Of a stretch of DNA of 24,394 nt, positions 7,092 to 24,315 are shown piece by piece. The notes beneath the pieces were generated by a model. That model was given only the letters and a program-made list of their open reading frames with translations. It was not told the origin of the DNA and did no database searches. The stretch covers positions 1 through 24,394 of IMG/VR virus record IMGVR_UViG_3300008266_000818, one strand, 5' to 3'. Source of the DNA: a virus. A program made the position numbers and the translations under genes. Numbering within the stretch: the first letter of the stretch is position 1; each line of letters opens with the position of its first letter.

Positions 7092-7544
7092 TTAGATCAC
7101 CCAAAATTCTTCAAGCTTTTGAAACCCATACCGACCGTAATCAAGGTTTGGACTGTTGACCATTTTACTGATAAAGAAGTTTGTCACACGCCCTTCCTCT
7201 TTCATCTTTATGGCCTCTTCAAGGTACTTTGCAAGCAAACGATAGCCTGATGTTCCGTTGCGACATTCTTGCTTCACAAAATAAGCAAACTCTGTCAAAA
7301 AGAAATGCTTGGGCGACCACAGACTTGGCATCACTCCAGCAATCAGAATCCCTTCAATTTGGTCAGTCTCAGCAATCAAAACAATTCCTTGACCTGCTAT
7401 CAAATTAGAAAGCATTTGCGACACATACCTCTCGTCATCGGCATCAGACAAAAATCCATATGGCAGTTCAGCGCGATACTCCATAAGCAATTTATAGATT
7501 GTAGGAATGTCAAACGGCGATGCGTGACGAATGTTAGGACGCAT
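7092..7544 (-). CDS. GNAT-family N-acetyltransferase
   Basis: A 150-residue single-domain protein with the GNAT plan: N-terminal IRHASPFDIPTIYKLLMEY (beta 1 and helix 1), a middle sheet (GIVLIAETDQIEGILIAGV), and an acetyl-CoA loop region FVKQECRNGTSGYRLLAKYLEEA, where R-N-G-T-S-G-Y-R replaces the usual Q/R-x-x-G-x-G/A. The last strand and FYEK-like end appear as DYGRYGFQKLEEFWVI. It should transfer an acetyl group from acetyl-CoA to an amine on an unknown substrate. It sits between two tail-tip genes: its start overlaps the previous gene by 11 nt and its stop lies one base before the hub start. A tail protein or host surface target is possible but inferred. Confidence 0.78.
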   Translation of the reverse strand: MRPNIRHASPFDIPTIYKLLMEYRAELPYGFLSDADDERYVSQMLSNLIAGQGIVLIAETDQIEGILIAGVMPSLWSPKHFFLTEFAYFVKQECRNGTSGYRLLAKYLEEAIKMKEEGRVTNFFISKMVNSPNLDYGRYGFQKLEEFWVI

Positions 7545-8943: not shown

Positions 8944-10386
8944 TTAGCTGATGCGGTACAGGATGAACGTGTTTGCCGCAGTACGCCGAATTCGGAAGTT
9001 GGCTGAAATGCCAGTGGCAATTGTCAAAGAGCCTAGCGATGTTACGCCTGTGTTGACAGCCATCGTGATTGTTCCAGAAGCAGTGTTGATAACGGTAAAG
9101 TCGTAGCCAAAATCAACACCTATCCACGGGACCAATGTTTCCATAGTCGTGCCAAGAGGCATTGTGACCGTGTATGTCGTGCCAGTTGTGTTGATGATCT
9201 GAGCTTGGATGTTTGCGTTGGTCAGTGTTGCGGCGGCGCTAATGGCCGCAGGTGCTGGCGCATCAACAACAATTGCTCCCGGAAACTGCGTGTTCCCAGA
9301 CGAGTCAACAACCTGACGGATAGTGCCAGCGCCATCAGACAACACAATGTAGCCGCTGGCCGTGCGGATGTCCAAGCCACCAGAGTTGCCTTGGTAGCTG
9401 CCGACAACCACGTTGTTGCTGCCCGTAGTCATCAAAGCACCAGAGCTTGCTCCAAGGAACAGGTTTGTAGCGCCCGTTGTTACAGCAGTTCCTGCGTTGT
9501 AACCCAGAGCCGTGTTGCTGCCTCCTGTTGCCGCTGTGAGGGCCGCATAACCAACAGCCGTGCCGTTGCCAGCAGTCAGCACATCATCCAGCGCAAAGTA
9601 GCCAATCGCCACGTTGTTGCTGGTGGTGCTGTTGCCCCACAGAGCACGGCGACCAACAGCGGTGTTAAGTGACCCCGTGGTGTTGCTGGACATTGCAAGG
9701 TAACCGATGGCCGTGTTCTCTGCGCCAGAAGTGTTTGCGTTTAGAGAGGAAGTTCCAACAGCGGTGTTGTTGCCGCCAGTGACAGCTCCGTTCATTGATG
9801 ATGCGCCAATAGCAATGTTATTGTCACCAGCAGTTGCAGAAGTAAGCGCAGCAGCGCCAATTGCAATGACGCTTGAAACGGTTTGCGCCGCGCCCAAAGC
9901 TCCGCTGCCAATAGCTACGTTACTTGCGCCAGTGGTGATGGCATCGGCAGCATTAGCGCCTACCGCCGTGTTGCCAGAGCCTGTCGTAGTCGCGCCCAAA
10001 GCAGCACCGCCAACAGCCGTATTGGTAGCCAAGTTAGCCAAGCCTCTACCTACGGTCATGCCATAGATAGTTGCGTTGCCGTTAACTGTGAATGTGGAAC
10101 TGAATGTAGTCGCACCAGTGAATGTCTGCGCGGTGTTTGCAAGGGTTGCCAGTGTGCCTGTAATGTTTGGCAGCGTGTATTGCCGGGTGGTTGCAGTTGT
10201 GATGCCACTCATCACAAACTCAGCCTTCTTGGTGTTGTCAGTTGGGTCTTCTAGTCTGAAGGTGTAGTTGACCTCCATAGCCGTACCAGCAATGGTGAAG
10301 GCATTGTCGTAATACTGAAAGTTTGCATCCAAATTAGCAAGAGGAATTGCACTGGTTGCGGTAGCAAATGAATTTGGCACTGGCAT
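8944..10386 (-). CDS. Tail fibre with YadA-head-like beta-roll repeats
   Basis: A 480-residue protein. Residues 1-40 (MPVPNSFATATSAIPLANLDANF) look like a tail-attachment head; 41-110 resemble the GTLATLANTAQTFTGATTF shaft motif of phage fibres. Residues 122-329 hold 13 copies of N-x-[AV]-[VIL]-G spaced 17 residues apart, as in head domains of trimeric autotransporter adhesins and in phage fibres that share this beta-roll. The end (about 380-480) is a beta-rich cap ending FILYRIS. The likely role is host binding as a trimeric fibre. It stands between the tape measure and distal-tail genes, where a fibre gene is not expected; start has TAAGGA upstream. Confidence 0.83.
   Translation of the reverse strand: MPVPNSFATATSAIPLANLDANFQYYDNAFTIAGTAMEVNYTFRLEDPTDNTKKAEFVMSGITTATTRQYTLPNITGTLATLANTAQTFTGATTFSSTFTVNGNATIYGMTVGRGLANLATNTAVGGAALGATTTGSGNTAVGANAADAITTGASNVAIGSGALGAAQTVSSVIAIGAAALTSATAGDNNIAIGASSMNGAVTGGNNTAVGTSSLNANTSGAENTAIGYLAMSSNTTGSLNTAVGRRALWGNSTTSNNVAIGYFALDDVLTAGNGTAVGYAALTAATGGSNTALGYNAGTAVTTGATNLFLGASSGALMTTGSNNVVVGSYQGNSGGLDIRTASGYIVLSDGAGTIRQVVDSSGNTQFPGAIVVDAPAPAAISAAATLTNANIQAQIINTTGTTYTVTMPLGTTMETLVPWIGVDFGYDFTVINTASGTITMAVNTGVTSLGSLTIATGISANFRIRRTAANTFILYRIS
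9400..10023 (-). repeat. 13 tandem 51-base coding repeats (17-residue beta-roll)
   Basis: Within the fibre gene the motif N-x-[AV]-[VIL]-G starts at residues 122, 139, 156, 173, 190, 207, 224, 241, 258, 275, 291, 308 and 325. The period is 17 residues except for one 16-residue step. Coding repeats diverge in DNA, so copy number is probably old rather than a recent slippage product, but unequal recombination could change it. Confidence 0.85.
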
Positions 10387-14366: not shown

Positions 14367-14591
14367 TTACTCTGTTGTGTCTGGTGCAACCTCTGGGGCA
14401 ACTTCTTCAATGACCACCACGGGTGCGGTCACGTTGTATTTTTTCAGCAGGGCCAAAGCAATGGCTTCTGCTGTGTCTGGCTCGGCAGTGGCTTCTGCAA
14501 GCTCACCAGCGTCAACCTCCAAGCCACGGGCAACAAGATTGATGTCGCCGTAGCTGGTCACAATCGCTTCAATTGCGTCAGTGAGTGTCAT
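14367..14591 (-). CDS. Small acidic protein after the tail-tube genes, function unknown
   Basis: A 74-residue protein starting MTLTDAIEAIVTSYGDINLV, with an acidic end (VVVIEEVAPEVAPDTTE). The start is taken as the ATG at 14591 because it overlaps the tube gene stop as TGATG; an upstream in-frame ATG at 14645 would lie well inside the tube gene. The fold appears helical up to LLKKYNV and then extended. It follows the second tail-tube paralogue, so a tail role is likely, but no family is recognised. Confidence 0.6.
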   Translation of the reverse strand: MTLTDAIEAIVTSYGDINLVARGLEVDAGELAEATAEPDTAEAIALALLKKYNVTAPVVVIEEVAPEVAPDTTE

Positions 14592-15109
14592 CAGTTGTTC
14601 GACCAGCCGTACTGGTTGCCCCGTGGATGAATCGTGAACATGCACTTAGCTTCAGCGCCGGGTTGTGCGTCAATTTGGAACTGACCCACGCGACCGTTGA
14701 AGGCATAAGCGACAGTGTTTGTGCCTTCCACTGCTGCGACCACAAAAGTGCGATCCACAACACCAGAATAAGCATCAGAACGAATCTGAAGCAATGCAGT
14801 ATTAGATGGGTCCCAAGCAGATGTAATGGTCAGGCTAGTAGGAGCCGCTTGCACTGGCATCTTGTCGCTTTGACGCGAACCAGCAACACTGAAGTTTGCC
14901 ATTGCGTCATCCATGCCAAACGCAGGGATGGCCTCAACAGGCACAGCAACACCAACAGTGCCAGTGCCGTTGGCAACAGTGCCAACAATGGTGGTCACTT
15001 GCGCCAGCCACACAGACAAGTTTGCCGTGGTCAATGGAGTTGGGGTTGCAGCCGACTGCATCCACAGCGAGGTGCTAAAACCGGGAAGAACTTTTGCAGG
15101 AATAGCCAT
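14591..15109 (-). CDS. Tail tube protein, paralogue 2
   Basis: A 172-residue protein, paralogous to the next-upstream gene. The final two thirds (PAFGMDDA to GWSNN) are near-identical in order and sequence, roughly four of five residues by eye: AGSRQSDK.PVQAAPTSLT, DAYSGV.DRTFVV, YAFNGRVGQFQIDAQPGAEA and FTIHPRGNQ.GWSNN. The N-terminal part diverges and this copy has an 8-residue Gly/Val-rich insert (TVANGTGTVGV). Size, position between tail terminator and chaperone, and abundance-type ribosome binding site (AAGGAGTCATC) point to the major tail tube subunit or a second tube subunit. The site overlaps the stop of the first copy (TAAGGAG). Confidence 0.8.
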   Translation of the reverse strand: MAIPAKVLPGFSTSLWMQSAATPTPLTTANLSVWLAQVTTIVGTVANGTGTVGVAVPVEAIPAFGMDDAMANFSVAGSRQSDKMPVQAAPTSLTITSAWDPSNTALLQIRSDAYSGVVDRTFVVAAVEGTNTVAYAFNGRVGQFQIDAQPGAEAKCMFTIHPRGNQYGWSNN

Positions 15110-15118
15110 GATGACTCC

Positions 15119-15613
15119 TTATGCGTTGTTGGACCAGCCGAACTGATTGCCGCGAGGATGGATTGTGAAAATGCACTTCGCTTCAGCACCGGGTTGGGCA
15201 TCAATCTGGAACTGGCCTACACGACCGTTAAAGGCGTAGTAAACAATGTTCGCACCATCTTCTGCCTCAACCACAAATGTGCGGTCAATTACGCCAGAAT
15301 AGGCATCTGCTCGCATCAACAGCAAGTTGGTGTCAGCAGGGTTCCATGCGGCAGTAACTGTCAAACTGGTAGGAGCAGCTTGGACCGGGATTTTGTCAGA
15401 TTGACGCGAACCAGCCACGCTGTAACTGGCAACAGCATCATCCATGCCAAAGGCAGGAACAGCTTGCACAGGCAGCAAGTTTCCAGTAACCGCAAGAGGC
15501 GAAACGCTTGCAACCAAAGACAACTGAGCAATTGTCAAAGGAGTTGGAGTAGCACCCGGCTGTGCGTACAGTGCCGCGCTAAAACCGGGAAGAATTTTGT
15601 TTGGTAAAGCCAT
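15119..15613 (-). CDS. Tail tube protein, paralogue 1
   Basis: A 164-residue beta-rich protein (MALPNKILPGFSAALYAQPG...), placed straight after the tail terminator, which is the usual place for the major tail tube subunit. Motifs shared with its tandem copy are PAFGMDDA, AGSRQSDKIPVQAAPTSLTV, DAYSGVIDRTFVV and AFNGRVGQFQIDAQPGAEA. AAGGA precedes the ATG. Which of the two copies is the main tube protein cannot be told from sequence; both keep a full core and neither shows decay. Family call (phage tail tube) is by position, size and general beta pattern. Confidence 0.82.
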   Translation of the reverse strand: MALPNKILPGFSAALYAQPGATPTPLTIAQLSLVASVSPLAVTGNLLPVQAVPAFGMDDAVASYSVAGSRQSDKIPVQAAPTSLTVTAAWNPADTNLLLMRADAYSGVIDRTFVVEAEDGANIVYYAFNGRVGQFQIDAQPGAEAKCIFTIHPRGNQFGWSNNA

Positions 15614-16414: not shown

Positions 16415-17086
16415 TTACATCACCAATGGCTTGTAGCTTCTCAGCAGCGTTGTTACCCCAAATGGGATGTCCTTCAGCTTTGTCTCTGTCGCGTTGGCGC
16501 GGTTGTTATACAAGTGCGTCATCAGCAGCAATCCCGCTTGTTTGATGACCTTGTACGATGCCAGTGGGTTTGCCACGGTTGAGTACTCCACGATGATTGG
16601 AGCAGTCATTACTGTGTTCACATCAGTTGGCAAATTGTTAACCACCACTTTGTTGCCAGAGGCATCGTAGTAATAGCTTGTGTTTACCAAAGTCTGAAAC
16701 ACTGGAGGGAACGCATCATTCCAATAACCCACGGAGCCAATCGTGACACCCGGCAGGTTTGCCGTTGCGTTCTGGCTCACCTCTGGCAAGTCAAGGCTGA
16801 TAGGTGACGCTACAAGGCTTTCAGAGCCGTACCAGACGCGATAAGTCACAGGGAAGATGGACATACCCAAGTAATCTTCAATCGCCTGTCTGGTGGCGAT
16901 TTCAAGCATCGTCAGGTATGTGTCCTGACTGGTGTCATCAAACAAGTTGATTTGATTTCTGACTTCAGTCAGTGTCAACCAAGCAGAAGAACTATCACGG
17001 GCAATCTGCTCAACTTTTGCATAGTTGAACGGATTGCGCGTTTGTGCGCCAAATGGAGCAGCGTATTGATAGTTATCAAAGCTCAT
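16415..17086 (-). CDS. Head-tail connector (gp6-like adaptor)
   Basis: A 223-residue protein. Its helical core matches the gp6-like adaptor family: LTLTEVRNQINLFDDTSQDTYLTMLEIATRQAIEDYLG (about 36-73) and a C-terminal helix (YKVIKQAGLLLMTHLYNNR, about 183-201). Between these is an extended beta-rich wing (about 75-175), longer than in small gp6 proteins (about 100 residues) but found in the larger members. It should form a ring beneath the portal. It lies two bases after the second capsid gene and is followed by the head-closure gene, the usual order. Confidence 0.85.
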   Translation of the reverse strand: MSFDNYQYAAPFGAQTRNPFNYAKVEQIARDSSSAWLTLTEVRNQINLFDDTSQDTYLTMLEIATRQAIEDYLGMSIFPVTYRVWYGSESLVASPISLDLPEVSQNATANLPGVTIGSVGYWNDAFPPVFQTLVNTSYYYDASGNKVVVNNLPTDVNTVMTAPIIVEYSTVANPLASYKVIKQAGLLLMTHLYNNRANATETKLKDIPFGVTTLLRSYKPLVM

Positions 17087-17088
17087 GT

Positions 17089-18132
17089 TTAAGTCTCGAT
17101 AGAACGAACACCAGCAAAAACGTCACGCACAGTGCTTACCATGCGCTTTTCAGCATACATGGTCACAAAACCGGGCGTTGTCTGTTCCATTGCCTGAACG
17201 GTCATTTCTTCCACATCAGCGATGGTCATGAAACGAGGCCAGTTTGCAAGGTACATCGACTTGCAGCCAACAGTGCCAGTTGCGTCCAAGTATGGGTTTG
17301 GAATCACAGGGAAACCAAACACATGGAGCAGTGAACCAGCTTCAGCGGAGCCAACGTCAATGAACGAGTAGCCGCCACCACCGTGAGCATAGTTACGCAA
17401 CGTCTGGATGGCTGTTGGGTGCATCATCCAAGCAGTACCGGGCATAGACCAGTATTGCGCTGGCAAGGCATTCGCCATAGCAGACAAGGTTTCAGCCTCA
17501 AGGCCACCAGTGTTGTTGTAACCAACGGTAGCCAAGGTGTGCAAGCCGTTTGTGATGGCTGTGCCGCTTGTACCAAAAGCAGCAGTTGCACCAGCAGCGC
17601 CGGGGTAGCTGTTCAGGCCACGCAAGCCGTCAGTGCCACCAGTCGATGTGGTGGTCGAACCCGCTTGGTCATTGTTCAGGCCGCACGATGCGCCTTCAAG
17701 CTGTGCAAATTCCATCATCAGGTCTTCAACCAACTCGTCTTGCAGACCGTTGACATCAGACAGCACAGCCGAGCGAACAGGCATTTGTGCGGTAATCACG
17801 CGAGTTGGCAATTGCCAAATGCTTGTGTTGATGTTTGGAGAACCACTGTTGGGGGTGATTGTGTAGCCCCAAGGGTTTGTGCTGTTGGCAGCGTTACCAG
17901 TCTTGGCAACAAACTGAACAGCGGAATTACCGGGGACTTTGATGTTTCGTGCGCCTTGGCGAAACGGGTTGGCATATCGCAAAGCAGCAAATGCCTCATC
18001 AAAGTGAGTGCGACCACCGACATTCAAGCCTGAACCAGTGATGGCAGATGCCTCGCGCAAGTCAATCGTGACTCTATCGCCAGTTTCCAAAGTTTGCTTA
18101 ATTCCAGTCAGGATGCGTTCGGTAATGGTCAT
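17089..18132 (-). CDS. Second capsid protein, HK97 fold, without delta domain
   Basis: A 347-residue paralogue of the major capsid protein encoded just upstream. Aligned blocks: LREASAITG....GGRTHFDEAFAALR with LKEASALTA....GGRTGYDPTFTALR; NTSIWQL; NNDQAG; GGTDGLRGL; AAFGTSGTA; FGFPVIPNPYLD; PGFVTMYAEKRM. Identity looks to be about 40% by eye. It begins only some 25 residues before the homologous block, so it lacks about 80 residues of N-terminal coiled-coil scaffold (delta) domain. It lies after an intrinsic terminator, with its own AGGAA site. It may be a minor shell, vertex or portal-near subunit that co-assembles; no frameshift or decay is seen. Confidence 0.85.
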   Translation of the reverse strand: MTITERILTGIKQTLETGDRVTIDLREASAITGSGLNVGGRTHFDEAFAALRYANPFRQGARNIKVPGNSAVQFVAKTGNAANSTNPWGYTITPNSGSPNINTSIWQLPTRVITAQMPVRSAVLSDVNGLQDELVEDLMMEFAQLEGASCGLNNDQAGSTTTSTGGTDGLRGLNSYPGAAGATAAFGTSGTAITNGLHTLATVGYNNTGGLEAETLSAMANALPAQYWSMPGTAWMMHPTAIQTLRNYAHGGGGYSFIDVGSAEAGSLLHVFGFPVIPNPYLDATGTVGCKSMYLANWPRFMTIADVEEMTVQAMEQTTPGFVTMYAEKRMVSTVRDVFAGVRSIET

Positions 18133-18155
18133 AACAGTTCCTAAATTATTGGCAC

Positions 18156-18182
18156 AAAAAGGAGGGGCAGTTACGCCCCTCC
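18156..18182 (-). terminator. Intrinsic terminator after major capsid gene
   Basis: On the minus strand GGAGGGGC (18182-18175) - GTAACT - GCCCCTCC (18168-18161) forms a perfect GC-rich 8-bp stem, followed at once by TTTTT. It starts seven bases after the capsid TGA. Read from the plus strand the stem is followed only by GTTTTAT, which is weaker. It should end part of the transcripts and so raise capsid mRNA above the downstream genes. Confidence 0.88.
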
Positions 18183-18188
18183 GTTTTA

Positions 18189-19538
18189 TCAGGTAGCTGT
18201 ACCTGTCGAGCGATAGCGCACCAGTGCGTTTGGATCGCGAACCGATGTTGCCAGACGCTTCTCACCAAAGAAGGTGATGAAACCGGGCAATGTCTGGTCG
18301 TAGCGGCGCATAACCATGTTCAAACGATCAATGATGGTGTGACCACGGCTCCAGTCACCAAAGTACATTGGGTACAGGCTGTTAGTGCCAGCAGTGCCAG
18401 TTGTAGCTTGGCTTGGGTTGTCCAAGTACTTGTTCATCACCACATCAAAGCCGAGCATTTGACCAATGATGCCATCGGGGTTCAACGACTCAGTAGAGTT
18501 GAAGATTGGACGGCCATTGGTGTCTTGCAGACCACGGATGGCTTGAGCCAAGATTGGGCTGACCATGAACTTGGCGTTGGTGGTCCAATACTGCTGTGGC
18601 AAAGCGTAGATCGTGTTGATAACGTCTTTGTACTGGATGTTGTTAGCACCCACAGTGTTGGCGTTGGTGGTGATCTGGTCGTAAGTAGCCAGCGAGTGCA
18701 GACCGCTTGTAGAGCCAGTGCCAGAAGTGCCAAAGGCAGCAACAGACGATGTACCACCAGTGTAGGTAGCGTTAGAACCAGCGTACTGATCCAGACCACG
18801 CAGACCGTTTGTGCCACCGTAGGGGTTGCTCACGGATTGTGCGGCTTGGTCGTTGTTCTGGATCATCGACAGGGCTTCGCTCTGAGCGAACGAGGCCAAC
18901 ATATCGTCAACCACAACAGCTTCCAGACCATCAATGTCGTCCAGAGCAGCGGTACGGATTGGGAACTGCACGTTCAAGTCTTGCAGAACCAATTGCCAGA
19001 TGCTGGTGTCTTCAGTGGTGGCTGCGCCGTTGTTCTGGATCGCATAGCCCCATGCTTCACCGGGGTTGCCCGTGCGCACGCGAAACTGGTACGAGGAACC
19101 GTCAGTAGCCACAGTGCGCGAGATGCCACGCATTGGGTTCATCAGACGCAGAGCAGTGAAAGTTGGATCGTAGCCAGTACGACCACCCTTGCCATCACCG
19201 CCAGCGGTCAAAGCAGAGGCTTCTTTCAGGTACGCATCCATTTGGCTTTCGTCTGCAAAGATTTGCAGTTCTTTTTCCAAGCGGCTGTTGCCTTTGTAGA
19301 ACTGGCTCAGTTGCTCACGCACCGAACGGTTCACATCTTGACGAACAGTCTTCGCAGGAGCGCGAATGAACTCAGGCATCTGGATAGAAGCAACTTTGGC
19401 TTCCAGAGCAGCAACCTTTTCGGCCATTTCAGCTTTGACAGCCTCAACAGCAGCGGGGATTTTTGCTTCAACAGCAGCAACGGCATCGGCTTGTTTAGCT
19501 TCGATGGCGTCCAATTTTTCGATGATTTCTTTAGACAT
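18189..19538 (-). CDS. Major capsid protein, HK97 fold
   Basis: A 449-residue protein. Residues 1-55 are a coiled coil rich in Ala, Glu and Lys (AIEAKQADAVAAVEAK...), the scaffold-like delta domain, which extends to about residue 110 (FYKGNSRLEKELQIFADES). The protease gene just upstream suggests removal near 105-115, before the GGDGKGGRTGYD start of the shell domain. The shell domain holds TSIWQLVLQDLNVQFPIRTAALDDI, NNDQAAQSV, GGTNGLRGLDQY, and the C-terminal YPMYFGDWSRGHTI...PGFITFFGEKRLATSVRDP typical of HK97-like capsid proteins. AAAGG precedes the ATG. Followed by an intrinsic terminator. Confidence 0.94.
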   Translation of the reverse strand: MSKEIIEKLDAIEAKQADAVAAVEAKIPAAVEAVKAEMAEKVAALEAKVASIQMPEFIRAPAKTVRQDVNRSVREQLSQFYKGNSRLEKELQIFADESQMDAYLKEASALTAGGDGKGGRTGYDPTFTALRLMNPMRGISRTVATDGSSYQFRVRTGNPGEAWGYAIQNNGAATTEDTSIWQLVLQDLNVQFPIRTAALDDIDGLEAVVVDDMLASFAQSEALSMIQNNDQAAQSVSNPYGGTNGLRGLDQYAGSNATYTGGTSSVAAFGTSGTGSTSGLHSLATYDQITTNANTVGANNIQYKDVINTIYALPQQYWTTNAKFMVSPILAQAIRGLQDTNGRPIFNSTESLNPDGIIGQMLGFDVVMNKYLDNPSQATTGTAGTNSLYPMYFGDWSRGHTIIDRLNMVMRRYDQTLPGFITFFGEKRLATSVRDPNALVRYRSTGTAT

Positions 19539-19541
19539 GAT

Positions 19542-20342
19542 TCAACCTTTAAGTCGTTTGTCGAGGAGTTTAAGAAGTTCACGTTGCTCAAGAGCCGCGA
19601 GAATTTCTGCTTCGGTTGCCTCCGCATCAGAATCACTCTGAGTTGGCGCATTTTCAATAGGCACTTCAACAGCATCACGCTGTTCAATCACCGTCTTGAA
19701 CACAGATGCGGCGGCAACCGACATCTGCTTGGACAGACCTGCATCCCGCAGGGCTTCTTCCAATACTTTCAAATCAGCAGAACCATCAGCACGGAAATAC
19801 TCCAGCTTCTTGATTTCTGCCTTCATGTTATTTGGGTGCATGACCACGCTGGTTTCACGCAGACCACCTTTGGTAATTTGGAAATAACCAGACTCATATG
19901 GGTCATCAGAACCAATGGTCATTGCTTCGCCATCTTCCTTGACCCACTGATATTCTTCAGCATAAGCGCCAACAGAAACCCCACCAAACATATTGGGGGA
20001 TTCCTTCATCACTTGGTAAAGATCAGAACCAGTTGTGGTGTTGAGATACAGGCGACCAGAAGCGTTCATGCCTTCGTCATCCATTTCAATGCTTGTCCAC
20101 TCACCAACAGGGATGGCATCAGCATTGTGGTTGACATACATGGGCAGTGGCCGACCAGATGCGGCAAACTCTTTGGCCCATTGCATAAAGCCTTCTGGCT
20201 TGTAGAAGAATTTACGACCATCTTGACCTTCTCTTGGTCCCCAAGTCGTAATGCGAGCTTCAATCTGTCCAGACGGTTCGCCGTTGTCGGCTTTCTCGTT
20301 GAGATTCAGCTTGGCTTCGCAGATTAGATTCAATGTCTTCAT
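19542..20342 (-). CDS. Prohead protease (HK97 family, U35)
   Basis: A 266-residue serine protease. The motifs are MYVNHNADAIPVGEW with likely catalytic H72, MFGGVSVGAY with likely catalytic S123, and LRETSVVMHPNNMKAEI closing the core. After about residue 185 is an acidic, Gln/Glu-rich tail that may act in assembly. It matures the capsid by cutting the delta domain and itself. Start chosen at 20342 because AGGGG stands six bases before it and the core begins soon after. It is three bases from the capsid gene start. A full-length product with no odd residues. Confidence 0.92.
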   Translation of the reverse strand: MKTLNLICEAKLNLNEKADNGEPSGQIEARITTWGPREGQDGRKFFYKPEGFMQWAKEFAASGRPLPMYVNHNADAIPVGEWTSIEMDDEGMNASGRLYLNTTTGSDLYQVMKESPNMFGGVSVGAYAEEYQWVKEDGEAMTIGSDDPYESGYFQITKGGLRETSVVMHPNNMKAEIKKLEYFRADGSADLKVLEEALRDAGLSKQMSVAAASVFKTVIEQRDAVEVPIENAPTQSDSDAEATEAEILAALEQRELLKLLDKRLKG

Positions 20343-20481: not shown

Positions 20482-21882
20482 TCAAGTCTTCGAGCCAATG
20501 TTCATTTTCTTGGTTTGGTTTCCACCACCGCCACCAGTATCTTGGGCACTTGAGCCGGGCACAGGTTCAGCAGGTTTGGCATCCTTGACCAACTCATCAC
20601 CACCTTCCATAGAAGGCAGATTCATGTAGTTACGGGCTTCGTTGGGTGTCATTATTCCACCTTTTACGCCAGCAGTCGCAAAGTTCATCTGGTCCAGCGG
20701 CGCACCCTTCAGGAAATCCTTGGTATCAAACTCAACACACAAAGAAGGGTAACCCTCCAGCAAATGCTGCGTCAACTTCTGTTGGATGTTGACGATTGTG
20801 GGATACATGGTGGTCTTGTAGAACTCGTCCAAAGCCGTTTGGCTGTTGTTGAACTTTCCGTCATGGATGCCAATCATGGAAGGCGGCACACCAAACAAAC
20901 CGCAGATGCGGCGCATAGTCTGCAACTTCAAAGCGGCAGCATCAGCGTCTTGCAGCGTCAGCATTTCCACAGTCTGGTACTTCATGCCTTGGTCAAGCAG
21001 CATACCCTGACCCGGCTTGCTTGGATCGCTGGCTTTGCTGCCTGTCATGTTGTTCCACGCCTCTTTCAGACGGGCTGCAATCTCTTTGTACTTGCCGTCA
21101 GGAATGACCTGATCCGTCACAAACATGCCAGAGGGCTTCGCACCGTTCTGCATGACAAAGTTGGCGTACAGGTCGATGTCTTGGTCAAGGCCGACCAGTT
21201 CAGTCGCCAAGATTGCCTTGTTGAAACCAGCAGAACCCTGCCACGCCATTTCCTTGCCGTGCATGACTTGGAAATACTTGAACTCATGGTCCTTGTTGAA
21301 ACCATAGCTTGGCGTAGACAGTCGGAATGTCGGATAACGGGTAGGCGTGATGTTCACCGCAATCAGCGTTGAATCCAGCACATACATTTCCAGCGGAGTT
21401 TCGGTGGAACTGTTCTGGTCTTTCCTCCACCACAAGGTAAAGGCTTCGCCAGACAACTCGTACCACATCAGCCACTGATACCAGAACTCATACTTGCTCT
21501 GGAAGTTGTTGGGATTGCCCAGCAGCTTGGCAACTTGCTTGGCTTTGGCCCTATCTCGCGCACCAACACCTTCACCACGGATGGCATCAACGGTTTTGCC
21601 GTCTGCTGTCTCGCAGCAAATCTTGATTGGCAACTGCGCCAAAGCCCGAGCCTTGACACCCACACACGACATGATTGTGCTGTTTCTGGTCAAAACAGAC
21701 ATGTCCACAGGGCGACCTGCGGTAGTTGTGCTGGCAGTCGTTACATAGAGGATTTGGGTGTTAACACCAGCACGTTTGTCACTGCCCTGATAAACAATGT
21801 TGTTGCCCAAAGCCGTTTGGCCGAACAATGTATTGCTCTCAGACTGAGTGTTTTTACGCTTGAAAATGTCAAGAATTGCCAT
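20482..21882 (-). CDS. Portal protein (HK97 family)
   Basis: A 466-residue protein that forms the twelve-fold ring for DNA entry and exit. Seen: an N-terminal NSTIMSCVGVKARALAQLPIKI (about 67-88), YEFWYQWLMWYELSGEAFTLWWR (about 130-152), the central VLDSTLIAVN wing, LQDADAAALKLQTMRRICGLFGVPPSMIG (about 323-351), and HDGKFNNSQTALDEFYKTTMYPTIVNIQQKLTQHLL, all hallmark portal blocks. The C-terminus has EARNYMNLP and a Gly-rich tail. GAGGGG stands before the ATG. It is the first gene after the large terminase, in standard order, and is of full length for the family. Confidence 0.94.
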   Translation of the reverse strand: MAILDIFKRKNTQSESNTLFGQTALGNNIVYQGSDKRAGVNTQILYVTTASTTTAGRPVDMSVLTRNSTIMSCVGVKARALAQLPIKICCETADGKTVDAIRGEGVGARDRAKAKQVAKLLGNPNNFQSKYEFWYQWLMWYELSGEAFTLWWRKDQNSSTETPLEMYVLDSTLIAVNITPTRYPTFRLSTPSYGFNKDHEFKYFQVMHGKEMAWQGSAGFNKAILATELVGLDQDIDLYANFVMQNGAKPSGMFVTDQVIPDGKYKEIAARLKEAWNNMTGSKASDPSKPGQGMLLDQGMKYQTVEMLTLQDADAAALKLQTMRRICGLFGVPPSMIGIHDGKFNNSQTALDEFYKTTMYPTIVNIQQKLTQHLLEGYPSLCVEFDTKDFLKGAPLDQMNFATAGVKGGIMTPNEARNYMNLPSMEGGDELVKDAKPAEPVPGSSAQDTGGGGGNQTKKMNIGSKT

Positions 21883-21906: not shown

Positions 21907-22554
21907 TTACCACTCCAACGACCTAAAGCCAAATGATTCGCTGACAAATACGTTATCCAAATGGCAGTGCAAGGCCATAATCATCGCAATAATGCCGTCA
22001 ACCTTGGCGCTTGGGTCGGCTTCGTTCTTGCGGACCTTTACGTTTCCGTTCACATCAATGTAAACCTCGCAGTTTCCAAGCTGCCATCCCACAAAAGGGT
22101 TGCCTTCGTGCTTGATGGCCTTCTTCAGGATAAGCTGCTCAGTGGTCTTTGACGGGTTCGACAACACAGCCATGCCCTGACCAACTTTCTTCACAGGCAA
22201 GCCGTCAGCGTACAGGTTCGCCACCAAAGCAGCGGCGTTGTACGGGTCATAGCCGATTTCTTTGACATCAAACTTCTCGCACTGCTGCTTGATGAACGAT
22301 TCAATCTCGTTGAGGTCCGTCACGTTGCCGGGTGTCAGCCGCAGAATGCCAGACCTGTGCGCTTCCATGTAAACAGACTTGTAATGGTTTGGCACAAAGT
22401 CCAAAGATTCCTCCGGCAAGAAGAATTGGAACTGAGCATAGAAATCTTCTTCGGCATATCGGTGCAAAGTCACCACCGCATTCAAGTCACGGGTGTGCGC
22501 CAAGTCAAAGCCAATAAAAGTGGACTCTGGCTTGTCAGTTGGTATCTTGTCCAC
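21907..22554 (-). CDS. Terminase large subunit, nuclease part (separate frame)
   Basis: A 215-residue open frame (GTG start by rule) that carries the C-terminal RNase H-like nuclease domain: FIGFDLAHTRDL with D17, EIGYDPYNA with D103, and AKVDGIIAM with D186, the three acidic positions of large-terminase nucleases. It is in the -1 frame relative to the ATPase part and overlaps it by 73 bases. The usual linker of some 50 residues between the LGVSV motif and the nuclease start is absent. Either a non-triplet deletion has split the gene, or the assembly is wrong here. No slippery heptamer or ribosome binding site suggests intended separate translation. Confidence 0.8.
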   Translation of the reverse strand: MDKIPTDKPESTFIGFDLAHTRDLNAVVTLHRYAEEDFYAQFQFFLPEESLDFVPNHYKSVYMEAHRSGILRLTPGNVTDLNEIESFIKQQCEKFDVKEIGYDPYNAAALVANLYADGLPVKKVGQGMAVLSNPSKTTEQLILKKAIKHEGNPFVGWQLGNCEVYIDVNGNVKVRKNEADPSAKVDGIIAMIMALHCHLDNVFVSESFGFRSLEW

Positions 22555-23453
22555 AGACTGACCGAAACCCCAAGCATGGGATTTGCTTTGCCCCAGACAG
22601 CAGGATCAGCCCAATTATCTCCGGGGTCGATGCTATAAAGAAGACCAAACCAGCGATGGCTGTCAGCAGCAGCGCCACGCAGCACGTTGCGAAAGTGAGA
22701 CAAGTCCTCATAGAACTTGGTTTCCTTGGTGAAGCTGGCAGTTGTCAGGTACATCCGCAGCGGGTTCTTTCGAGCGCCCATACCCGAGTGCAACACTTCA
22801 ATGGACTGCCTCTCAGTAATCTGAGCAGCCTCGTCAATCATGGCGCAAGACGGGTTCTTGCCGTCACCAGTCTTCCTGTTTTCCCGTGACAGCGCCCGGT
22901 AAGTGGAAGTCGAGTCGCCAGCCTTTTTCAGTTCGCTACGGTAAGCAATGAACTTGGCTCCCAACTCAGGCTTCATCGCCTCAACAATCGCCTTGGACGA
23001 ATCAAAGCAAATACTCGCCTGATCCCTGTTGGTAGCCAGAGTAAACACTTCAGCGCCAGCATCACCAAACTGCAACTCATACAGCGCAATGATGGACGCA
23101 ATGGTTGTCTTGCCAGACTTTCGAGGCACGAACAAAATGACATCAGTGACATAGCGATATGTGTGGTCTTTCCTGTCCCTGAACCCGTAGATAGCCGCCA
23201 AGTACATGACCTGAAACGGCTGAAGCTCAATGGATTTCCCGGCATCCGGGCCTTTGACATGGCGACAGAACTTGACGAATTTGAGGATGTGTTCAGCCTT
23301 GGCAGGGACAAACTCGTAAGGCGCATCCTTACGTTCGACCATATCCAAGAACCGTTGGCAAGCTAGTTTGACATCTTCACACGCCTGAATGTCACCCCTA
23401 GTTACCGCTACCGCATACTCAAACGCAGGGTTAAGCAGTGGCGAATAGCTCAT
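22482..23453 (-). CDS. Terminase large subunit, ATPase part (interrupted)
   Basis: A 323-codon frame holding the packaging motor ATPase of a Terminase_1/HK97-type protein: LQPFQVMYLAAIYGF (77-91), Walker A PRKSGKTT (110-117), Walker B CAMIDEAA with D207 and E208, and coupling motif TTAS (237-240). Homology lasts to KANPMLGVSV (289-298, near base 22560); the last 25 residues (SLWTRYQLTSQ...) are out-of-frame sequence of the nuclease part. The true protein should continue through a linker and the nuclease domain to about 550 residues. The start at 23453 overlaps the small terminase by 23 bases. Confidence 0.85.
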   Translation of the reverse strand: MSYSPLLNPAFEYAVAVTRGDIQACEDVKLACQRFLDMVERKDAPYEFVPAKAEHILKFVKFCRHVKGPDAGKSIELQPFQVMYLAAIYGFRDRKDHTYRYVTDVILFVPRKSGKTTIASIIALYELQFGDAGAEVFTLATNRDQASICFDSSKAIVEAMKPELGAKFIAYRSELKKAGDSTSTYRALSRENRKTGDGKNPSCAMIDEAAQITERQSIEVLHSGMGARKNPLRMYLTTASFTKETKFYEDLSHFRNVLRGAAADSHRWFGLLYSIDPGDNWADPAVWGKANPMLGVSVSLWTRYQLTSQSPLLLALTWRTPVT

Positions 23454-23814: not shown

Positions 23815-24315
23815 TTAGATGGTGCATCCTATATGCAATTTTCTTTTTGCGAAAATATAGGCTTCGTGAGCTTGCTCAACTGTGTCAAAGTAACCAATGT
23901 GACGCTGTTTTCCTTCTGTAGTAATAACAGCCCTCCATTTCCTATGATTCTTTTCTCTTGAAACCCCAAGGACACCGCAAGATTTGTTGTGACTTGGCGC
24001 AGCTTTTTGATTTTCCATATTGACCATAGTACTGACATCTCGCAAATTTTCAATACGGTTGTCAGTCACAACACCATTGATGTGGTCAATGTAATGTTTG
24101 GGCCACTCGCCATAAACATACAGCCAAGCAAGCCTATGCCCTCTATAAACAGAACCATCAACGCCAATTAACACATAGCCTTTAATTGATGGCGAACCAG
24201 CAACATCGCCAACGTGAACCCTTTTGCTGTTTGCAATCTTCCATTTGAACAATCCAGTTTCAGGGTCATAGTCAAGCAATTGCTTCAATCTGTTTTGCGT
24301 AAGATTTGAATTCAT
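23815..24315 (-). CDS. HNH endonuclease with AP2-type DNA-binding domain
   Basis: A 166-residue protein of homing-nuclease type. Residues 10-55 hold the NUMOD4-like start (LLDYDPETGLFKWK ... GYVLIGVDGS). The HNH core is HRLAWLYVYGEWPKHYIDHINGVVTDNRIENLR (60-92), with H60, H78 and N86 as likely active or metal residues. Residues about 110-160 (GVLGVSREKNHRKWRAVI ... HIGYFDTVEQAHEAYIFAKRKLH) match the AP2 DNA-binding fold. Such genes insert next to packaging genes and some nick DNA at cos sites; either is possible here. AGAGG precedes the ATG. It is separated from the small terminase by 12 bases. Confidence 0.9.
   Translation of the reverse strand: MNSNLTQNRLKQLLDYDPETGLFKWKIANSKRVHVGDVAGSPSIKGYVLIGVDGSVYRGHRLAWLYVYGEWPKHYIDHINGVVTDNRIENLRDVSTMVNMENQKAAPSHNKSCGVLGVSREKNHRKWRAVITTEGKQRHIGYFDTVEQAHEAYIFAKRKLHIGCTI

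Follow-up and report, generated by a model that had tools for sequence, protein, structure and literature searches.

In most HK97-type phages a single protein builds both the pentamers and the hexamers of the head. The locus described here raises the question of what a tailed phage does with two HK97-fold capsid genes lying one behind the other. The window, i.e., the whole stretch of DNA analysed (24,394 nt), is a fragment (24.4 kb) of the genome of an uncultivated tailed phage, taken from a virus record. Its head module is encoded on the minus strand in the order small terminase, large terminase, portal, S78 protease, LONG, SHORT, and connector, followed by two more small genes, two tail-tube-like genes, and the tape measure gene. 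LONG and SHORT denote here the genes, and their products, of 449 and 347 aa, respectively; their ORFs are intact and consecutive in the order of transcription (Table 1).

Table 1. Positions of the capsid genes, their parts, and their neighbours in the window
Feature	Positions	Strand	Evidence and remarks
Portal protein	20482..21882	-	PF04860 2.9e-58
Prohead protease, peptidase S78 family, presumed processor of LONG and SHORT	19542..20342	-	PF04586 1.1e-08; phrog_3244
LONG, major capsid protein, 449 aa, HK97 fold with N-terminal coiled-coil delta (scaffold) domain	18189..19538	-	PF05065 3.4e-29; phrog_10 major head protein 8.7e-27; profile match to RcGTA capsid protein 5.4e-12
LONG delta/scaffold domain, about residues 1-105	19224..19538	-	Predicted helices 3-51 (long), 65-82, 97-111; no equivalent in SHORT
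LONG putative maturation junction and N-arm start, EASALTAGGDGKGGRT, residues 106-121, predicted cleavage	19176..19223	-	
LONG loop, residues 257-264, absent in SHORT, A-domain side	18747..18770	-	
LONG loop, residues 291-298, absent in SHORT, A-domain side	18645..18668	-	
LONG loop, residues 378-386, absent in SHORT, A-domain side	18381..18407	-	
Intrinsic-terminator-like hairpin followed by TTTTT, inside the 56-nt LONG-SHORT gap	18161..18182	-	
SHORT, second HK97-fold capsid protein, 347 aa, proposed vertex (penton) protein	17089..18132	-	PF05065 3.7e-19; 39% identity to LONG; model vs RcGTA; dN/dS 0.097
SHORT mini-leader, MTITERILTGIKQTLETGDRVTIDLR, residues 1-26	18055..18132	-	Predicted helix 3-17
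SHORT junction, EASAITGSGLNVGGRT, residues 27-42	18007..18054	-	Paralogous to the LONG junction
Head-tail connector, first gene past SHORT	16415..17086	-	PF05135 3.9e-05; phrog_40

Both products are HK97-fold capsid proteins, as an earlier note on this DNA had proposed for the tandem genes: LONG scores 102.5 bits and SHORT 69.6 bits against PF05065 (Phage_capsid), with a cut-off of 24.2, which makes both of them members of the family. The many aligned blocks noticed then correspond to 39% identity over 346 columns in a BLASTP comparison of the two proteins (E 2e-59), far beyond chance. The structure of SHORT was modelled with AlphaFold2 using 37 relatives, the row of the cultured relative P19250A being left out whole; the model, of middling confidence (mean pLDDT 67.5, pTM 0.68), matches the capsid protein of RcGTA (Foldseek E 2.2e-13, Z 20.9 over 261 residues) and the HK97 prohead (Z 17.6). 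The model of LONG is poor (pLDDT 54), yet it reaches RcGTA with a Z of 15.3; being too weak for detail, it was not used for any residue-level comparison of the two folds. The profile of LONG also reaches RcGTA by sequence, and so does that of SHORT. A phmmer search of SHORT directly against PDB sequences gave no match, and no match of SHORT was found among the PADLOC defence families.

The phages that carry the pair form a family, small (~38 kb) and found in both fresh and marine waters. Five scans of viral contigs, together with searches of phage records, yielded over 300 loci. In the first set both genes were found at 156 of 156 loci, each locus with LONG only ending at most 90 bases past LONG, while in the full set SHORT comes next after all 238 distinct LONG genes for which the test was possible (LONG complete and followed by 300 bases or more). 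Relatives with LONG but without SHORT, sought in order to place the duplication, were not found, all the apparent exceptions being contig ends; the search for the same pair in related phages, advised in the earlier note, thus ended with SHORT kept by every relative. The cultured relative, Methylophilaceae phage P19250A (KX815270), has a genome of 38.7 kb, and its LONG and SHORT are 59% and 56% identical to those of the window. They are annotated as "gene transfer agent capsid protein" and "hypothetical protein", respectively, and the latter annotation is corrected by the present findings. The marine isolate Methylophilales phage Venkman is reported to have a P19250A-like synteny and to belong to the same genus-level cluster (PMC8163748); with a cultured phage and a reported relative, testing is practical. 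The sole locus originating from the scan of genome contigs (L084, JAHEYD010000010.1) is a phage contig of this family binned in an archaeal MAG, Candidatus Nitrosotalea, most likely by misbinning. Another relative (L160) lies on a contig of 75,987 bases, double the usual size, and may be either a concatemer or a bigger phage that shares this head module.

When 38 representatives of each gene were placed in one tree, the LONG clade and the SHORT clade came out reciprocally monophyletic, with a support of 100 for the branch dividing them; the pair therefore stems from a single old tandem duplication, predating all the sampled diversity. No sign of gene conversion between LONG and SHORT is seen in this tree. 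The mean identity is 60% among SHORT proteins, 69% among LONG proteins, and 39% between LONG and SHORT within one genome. Calculated for the same genome pairs, the median dN/dS is 0.097 for SHORT, 0.115 for LONG, 0.110 for the protease, 0.105 for the connector, and 0.054 for the portal gene. SHORT is under purifying selection, and the value indicates that its product is needed. Relaxed selection, which the earlier note had suggested looking for as an argument against a role of SHORT, is not seen, its dN/dS not being above that of LONG or the protease, and the impression that neither gene is decaying is borne out by the intact ORFs and low dN/dS. None of the 153 complete copies of SHORT is broken; one of them (L020) codes for 326 aa.

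At its N-terminus LONG carries a helical delta domain of ~105 residues, the domain thought in HK97 to direct assembly, while SHORT has instead a conserved leader, 25-50 residues long and following the pattern MxxxExILxGIKxALxxG...V(D/N)L(K/R), in which I7, L8, and K12 are nearly invariant and G18 is invariant. SHORT had been described in the earlier note as lacking the scaffold domain and starting just before the shell; the coiled-coil delta domain is indeed missing, but the conserved leader and a LONG-like junction are present. This junction, EASALTGSGxxVGGRT, is common to LONG and SHORT and is the region in which the paralogues are most alike (74% consensus identity vs 37-54% in other regions of the mature shell, Fisher p 0.03). 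Its co-variation was assessed by comparing LONG/SHORT pairs from the same genome with pairs from mismatched genomes in 16-column windows. The same-genome excess of similarity is highest at SHORT residues 21-44, with z of 3.1-4.2 against a mean of 0.29 (sd 1.25) for all windows, the excess itself being small (~0.03) and z being inflated by relatedness, so that the contrast with the other windows is the meaningful part. Residues 314-334 of SHORT, lying in the C-terminal P-domain strands, also head the list. Examples of co-variation are LQGSG in both P19250A proteins and EASTLT in both proteins of L089 and L141. The residue preceding the junction is variable (K, R, T, N, S, A, Q, D, or E), and in L150 and L157 the junction is altered in LONG and unchanged in SHORT. 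Since the junction is the most alike region and co-varies within genomes, one protease probably matures both LONG and SHORT, as far as can be judged from the sequences. The co-variation would be most simply explained by a single protease and a single set of N-arm contacts acting on both proteins.

On balance, the evidence leans modestly towards SHORT being a dedicated vertex (penton) protein derived from the old tandem duplication. LONG would build the hexamers, with its delta domain acting as a built-in scaffold, and SHORT would join the assembly as pentamers via conserved contacts of the N-arm, E-loop, and P-domain. The single S78 protease would cut both proteins at the common junction, taking the delta domain off LONG and the short leader off SHORT, the N-arms of the two proteins would mature together after cleavage, and the terminator past LONG would hold SHORT to a fraction of LONG. 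The head is probably of the T=7 type like that of HK97 (39.7 kb), as expected from the genome size of ~38 kb, and a T=7 head would be expected to comprise 360 copies of LONG, 55 copies of SHORT, and the portal. In the HK97 fold the A domain faces the capsomer axis, while the N-arm, E-loop, and P-domain regions bind the neighbouring capsomers. Three loops of LONG, 8, 8, and 9 residues long, have no counterpart in SHORT; each is located on the A-domain side, where the least alike regions (37%) also lie, the N-arm, E-loop, and P-domain regions being closer. Such a clustering of differences is a suggestive trend of the kind expected of a vertex protein, comprising three indels only, not significant, and with domain limits taken from a model of mean pLDDT 67.5. 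Against the vertex reading stand the variable residue before the junction and the LONG-only change in L150 and L157; moreover, neither virion proteomics nor a structure was found for any member of the family, and a T=7 phage, e.g., HK97, can build pentamers from its major protein, which leaves the need for a second protein unexplained.

The gap between LONG and SHORT spans 50-77 nt in the relatives, while in the window a few bases separate the protease gene from LONG and SHORT from the connector gene. It contains a feature absent from the earlier note, a GC-rich hairpin followed by a U-rich tract, found in 37 of 38 representatives versus 0.54 expected from dinucleotide shuffles; the rest of the module has 10 such sites in 197 kb. 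Among all the relatives, 171 of the 175 distinct gaps contain the hairpin, and its stem arms come in 84 distinct versions, indicating that its structure is kept while the sequence changes. In one of the four gaps devoid of it (L205), an inserted ORF with an HNH-endonuclease-like motif takes the place of the terminator. The hairpin probably ends most of the transcription of the major capsid gene, its strength as a terminator being a prediction. SHORT would then lie, together with the connectors, on the low-expression side, a position more in keeping with a minor shell protein than with an equimolar partner. A hairpin peculiar to the LONG/SHORT pair was considered and rejected, since it is also found after the capsid gene in HK97, SfV, PMG1, Marinobacter AS1, and Proteus Pm34 (three of these five phage records annotate it as a terminator), and it also precedes connectors and tail genes. 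The hairpin marks low expression, not vertices.

Low expression behind a terminator fits any minor shell subunit, and SHORT might thus occupy variable or non-vertex positions in the shell, in mixed hexamers or in a ring round the portal, tuning its size, curvature, or strength. This is unlikely but far from negligible: the fold and contacts are the same in SHORT and LONG, the encapsulin structures 9bje and 9bix are among the fold matches of SHORT, and in two-component Family 2B encapsulins two HK97-fold paralogues can form one shell of variable composition (PMC12407261). A fixed and distinct position is suggested, however, by the strict one-to-one retention, the separate clades, and the lack of gene conversion, and the shortened leader of SHORT points to an assembly route unlike that of LONG. 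Having the whole capsid fold, SHORT could in principle self-assemble and form a separate or smaller particle, or it could set the head size, e.g., by poisoning larger shells. This is improbable given the strict synteny with LONG, the co-varying junction common to LONG, and a head module without a second portal or packaging gene; moreover, there is no known reason for all members to need a second particle.

The location of SHORT between the capsid and connector genes is a frequent site of small head genes, which would suit a surface decoration, a cap, or a connector-like head-completion protein built on the capsid fold. Such a function is nevertheless very improbable, as SHORT retains the capsid fold in full along with the N-arm, the best-conserved region between the paralogues, and an adaptor is already present as the next gene. 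The earlier note listed vertices, shell size, and a cap or decoration as possible roles; of these, vertices are favoured by the evidence, decoration being unlikely with the fold and the N-arm region preserved. Finally, SHORT could be regarded as a redundant duplicate with no role of its own, retained by chance or drift; tandem duplication is an ordinary origin, and the tail-tube-like pair of the same operon is also duplicated. This explanation is refuted by the dN/dS of 0.097, the retention in 238 of 238 cases in spite of a divergence down to 47% identity, and the lack of broken genes among the 153 complete copies.

For SHORT as a vertex protein, the T4 pair gp23/gp24, named as a precedent in the earlier note, is the right comparison. 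A vertex protein of the gp24 type occupies 11 of the 12 vertices as pentamers, 55 copies in all. In T4, gp24 forms the vertices and loses a leader of 10 residues, the same protease removes 65 residues from gp23, some of the gene-23 mutations bypassing gp24 fall in the A domain, and gp24 probably arose by duplication of the major gene (PMC9958956). Like gp24, SHORT is a paralogue of the major capsid protein with the HK97 fold, is needed by the phage, and has been retained (39% identity, reciprocal monophyly, 238 of 238), and it has a much shorter leader; this short conserved leader and the shared, co-varying junction are observed, and cleavage by the same protease is predicted. T4 differs in having a ~170-kb genome, a prolate head, and gp23 and gp24 ~20% identical, versus ~38 kb and 39% identity here. 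Unlike in T4, the pair goes with a protease of the S78/HK97 type and with a scaffold fused to the capsid protein as a delta domain, and the vertex site is a proposed one. No family or structure of T4 gp23/gp24 was found among the reported Pfam, PHROG, and PDB sequence matches of SHORT and LONG, and none appears in the top rows of the Foldseek and VIA lists, which is not evidence of absence. SHORT looks to work like gp24 without being a member of the gp24 family, and its origin looks independent, as no sequence link to T4 proteins was found among the matches. HK97 gp5 and RcGTA Rcc01687 share with LONG and SHORT the fold and PF05065, and the HK97 layout is that of LONG (a delta domain, the protease just upstream, and the terminator just downstream), but both systems use one capsid gene for hexamers and pentamers, in contrast to the two genes found here. 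Family 2B encapsulins (Streptomyces lydicus, PMC12407261) also comprise two HK97-fold paralogues in one system; unlike the phage heads, they are cellular nanocompartments without a portal, protease, or scaffold, and their shell composition is variable.

According to a 2026 review, separate penton and hexon proteins are rare, with T4 as the example, and are tied to its large genome (PMC13185644). A dedicated vertex paralogue is known from T4; no report of one in a small HK97-type phage was found in the open-access literature searched. The chances are about even that these ~38-kb siphophages, an entire clade with heads probably of T=7, have divided the HK97-fold capsid protein into a scaffold-fused hexamer protein and a mini-leader penton protein independently of T4. 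If this is true, a 38-kb clade with two such proteins everywhere contradicts the large-genome argument and amounts to a second natural head of two proteins, a minimal one, with the "one protein, both rings" principle abandoned for good. It would also provide a small system for asking what a pentamer-specific capsid protein must change, and SHORT with its ~25-residue leader would test how much scaffold a pentamer needs.

Several other genes of the window deserve a mention. Two tail-tube-like proteins are encoded in tandem at 14591-15109(-) and 15119-15613(-); they are 68% identical (E 3e-87), and one of them weakly matches the phrog_158 major tail protein. Both genes are present in most relatives, L161, L162, and L165 matching one only, and the pair is the second duplicated structural gene in the LONG/SHORT operon. 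The large terminase is split over two frames, the ATPase followed by the nuclease, at 21907-22554(-) and 22482-23453(-). The split occurs in this window only, all relatives with a complete large terminase having a single ORF of ~552-577 aa, and is probably a sequencing or assembly frameshift. Among the tail-tip genes, at 7092-7544(-), lies a gene coding for an acetyltransferase-like protein (phrog_1249, 3.6e-14), in the place usually occupied in lambda-like phages by a tail peptidase. Between the tape measure and tail-tip genes, at 8944-10386(-), a protein of 480 aa with repeated A-I-G-x-x-A motifs is encoded, resembling spike and virion structural families (phrog_6002, phrog_4636). An HNH endonuclease with an AP2 domain, typical of a homing endonuclease, is encoded at 23815-24315(-), adjoining the terminase genes.
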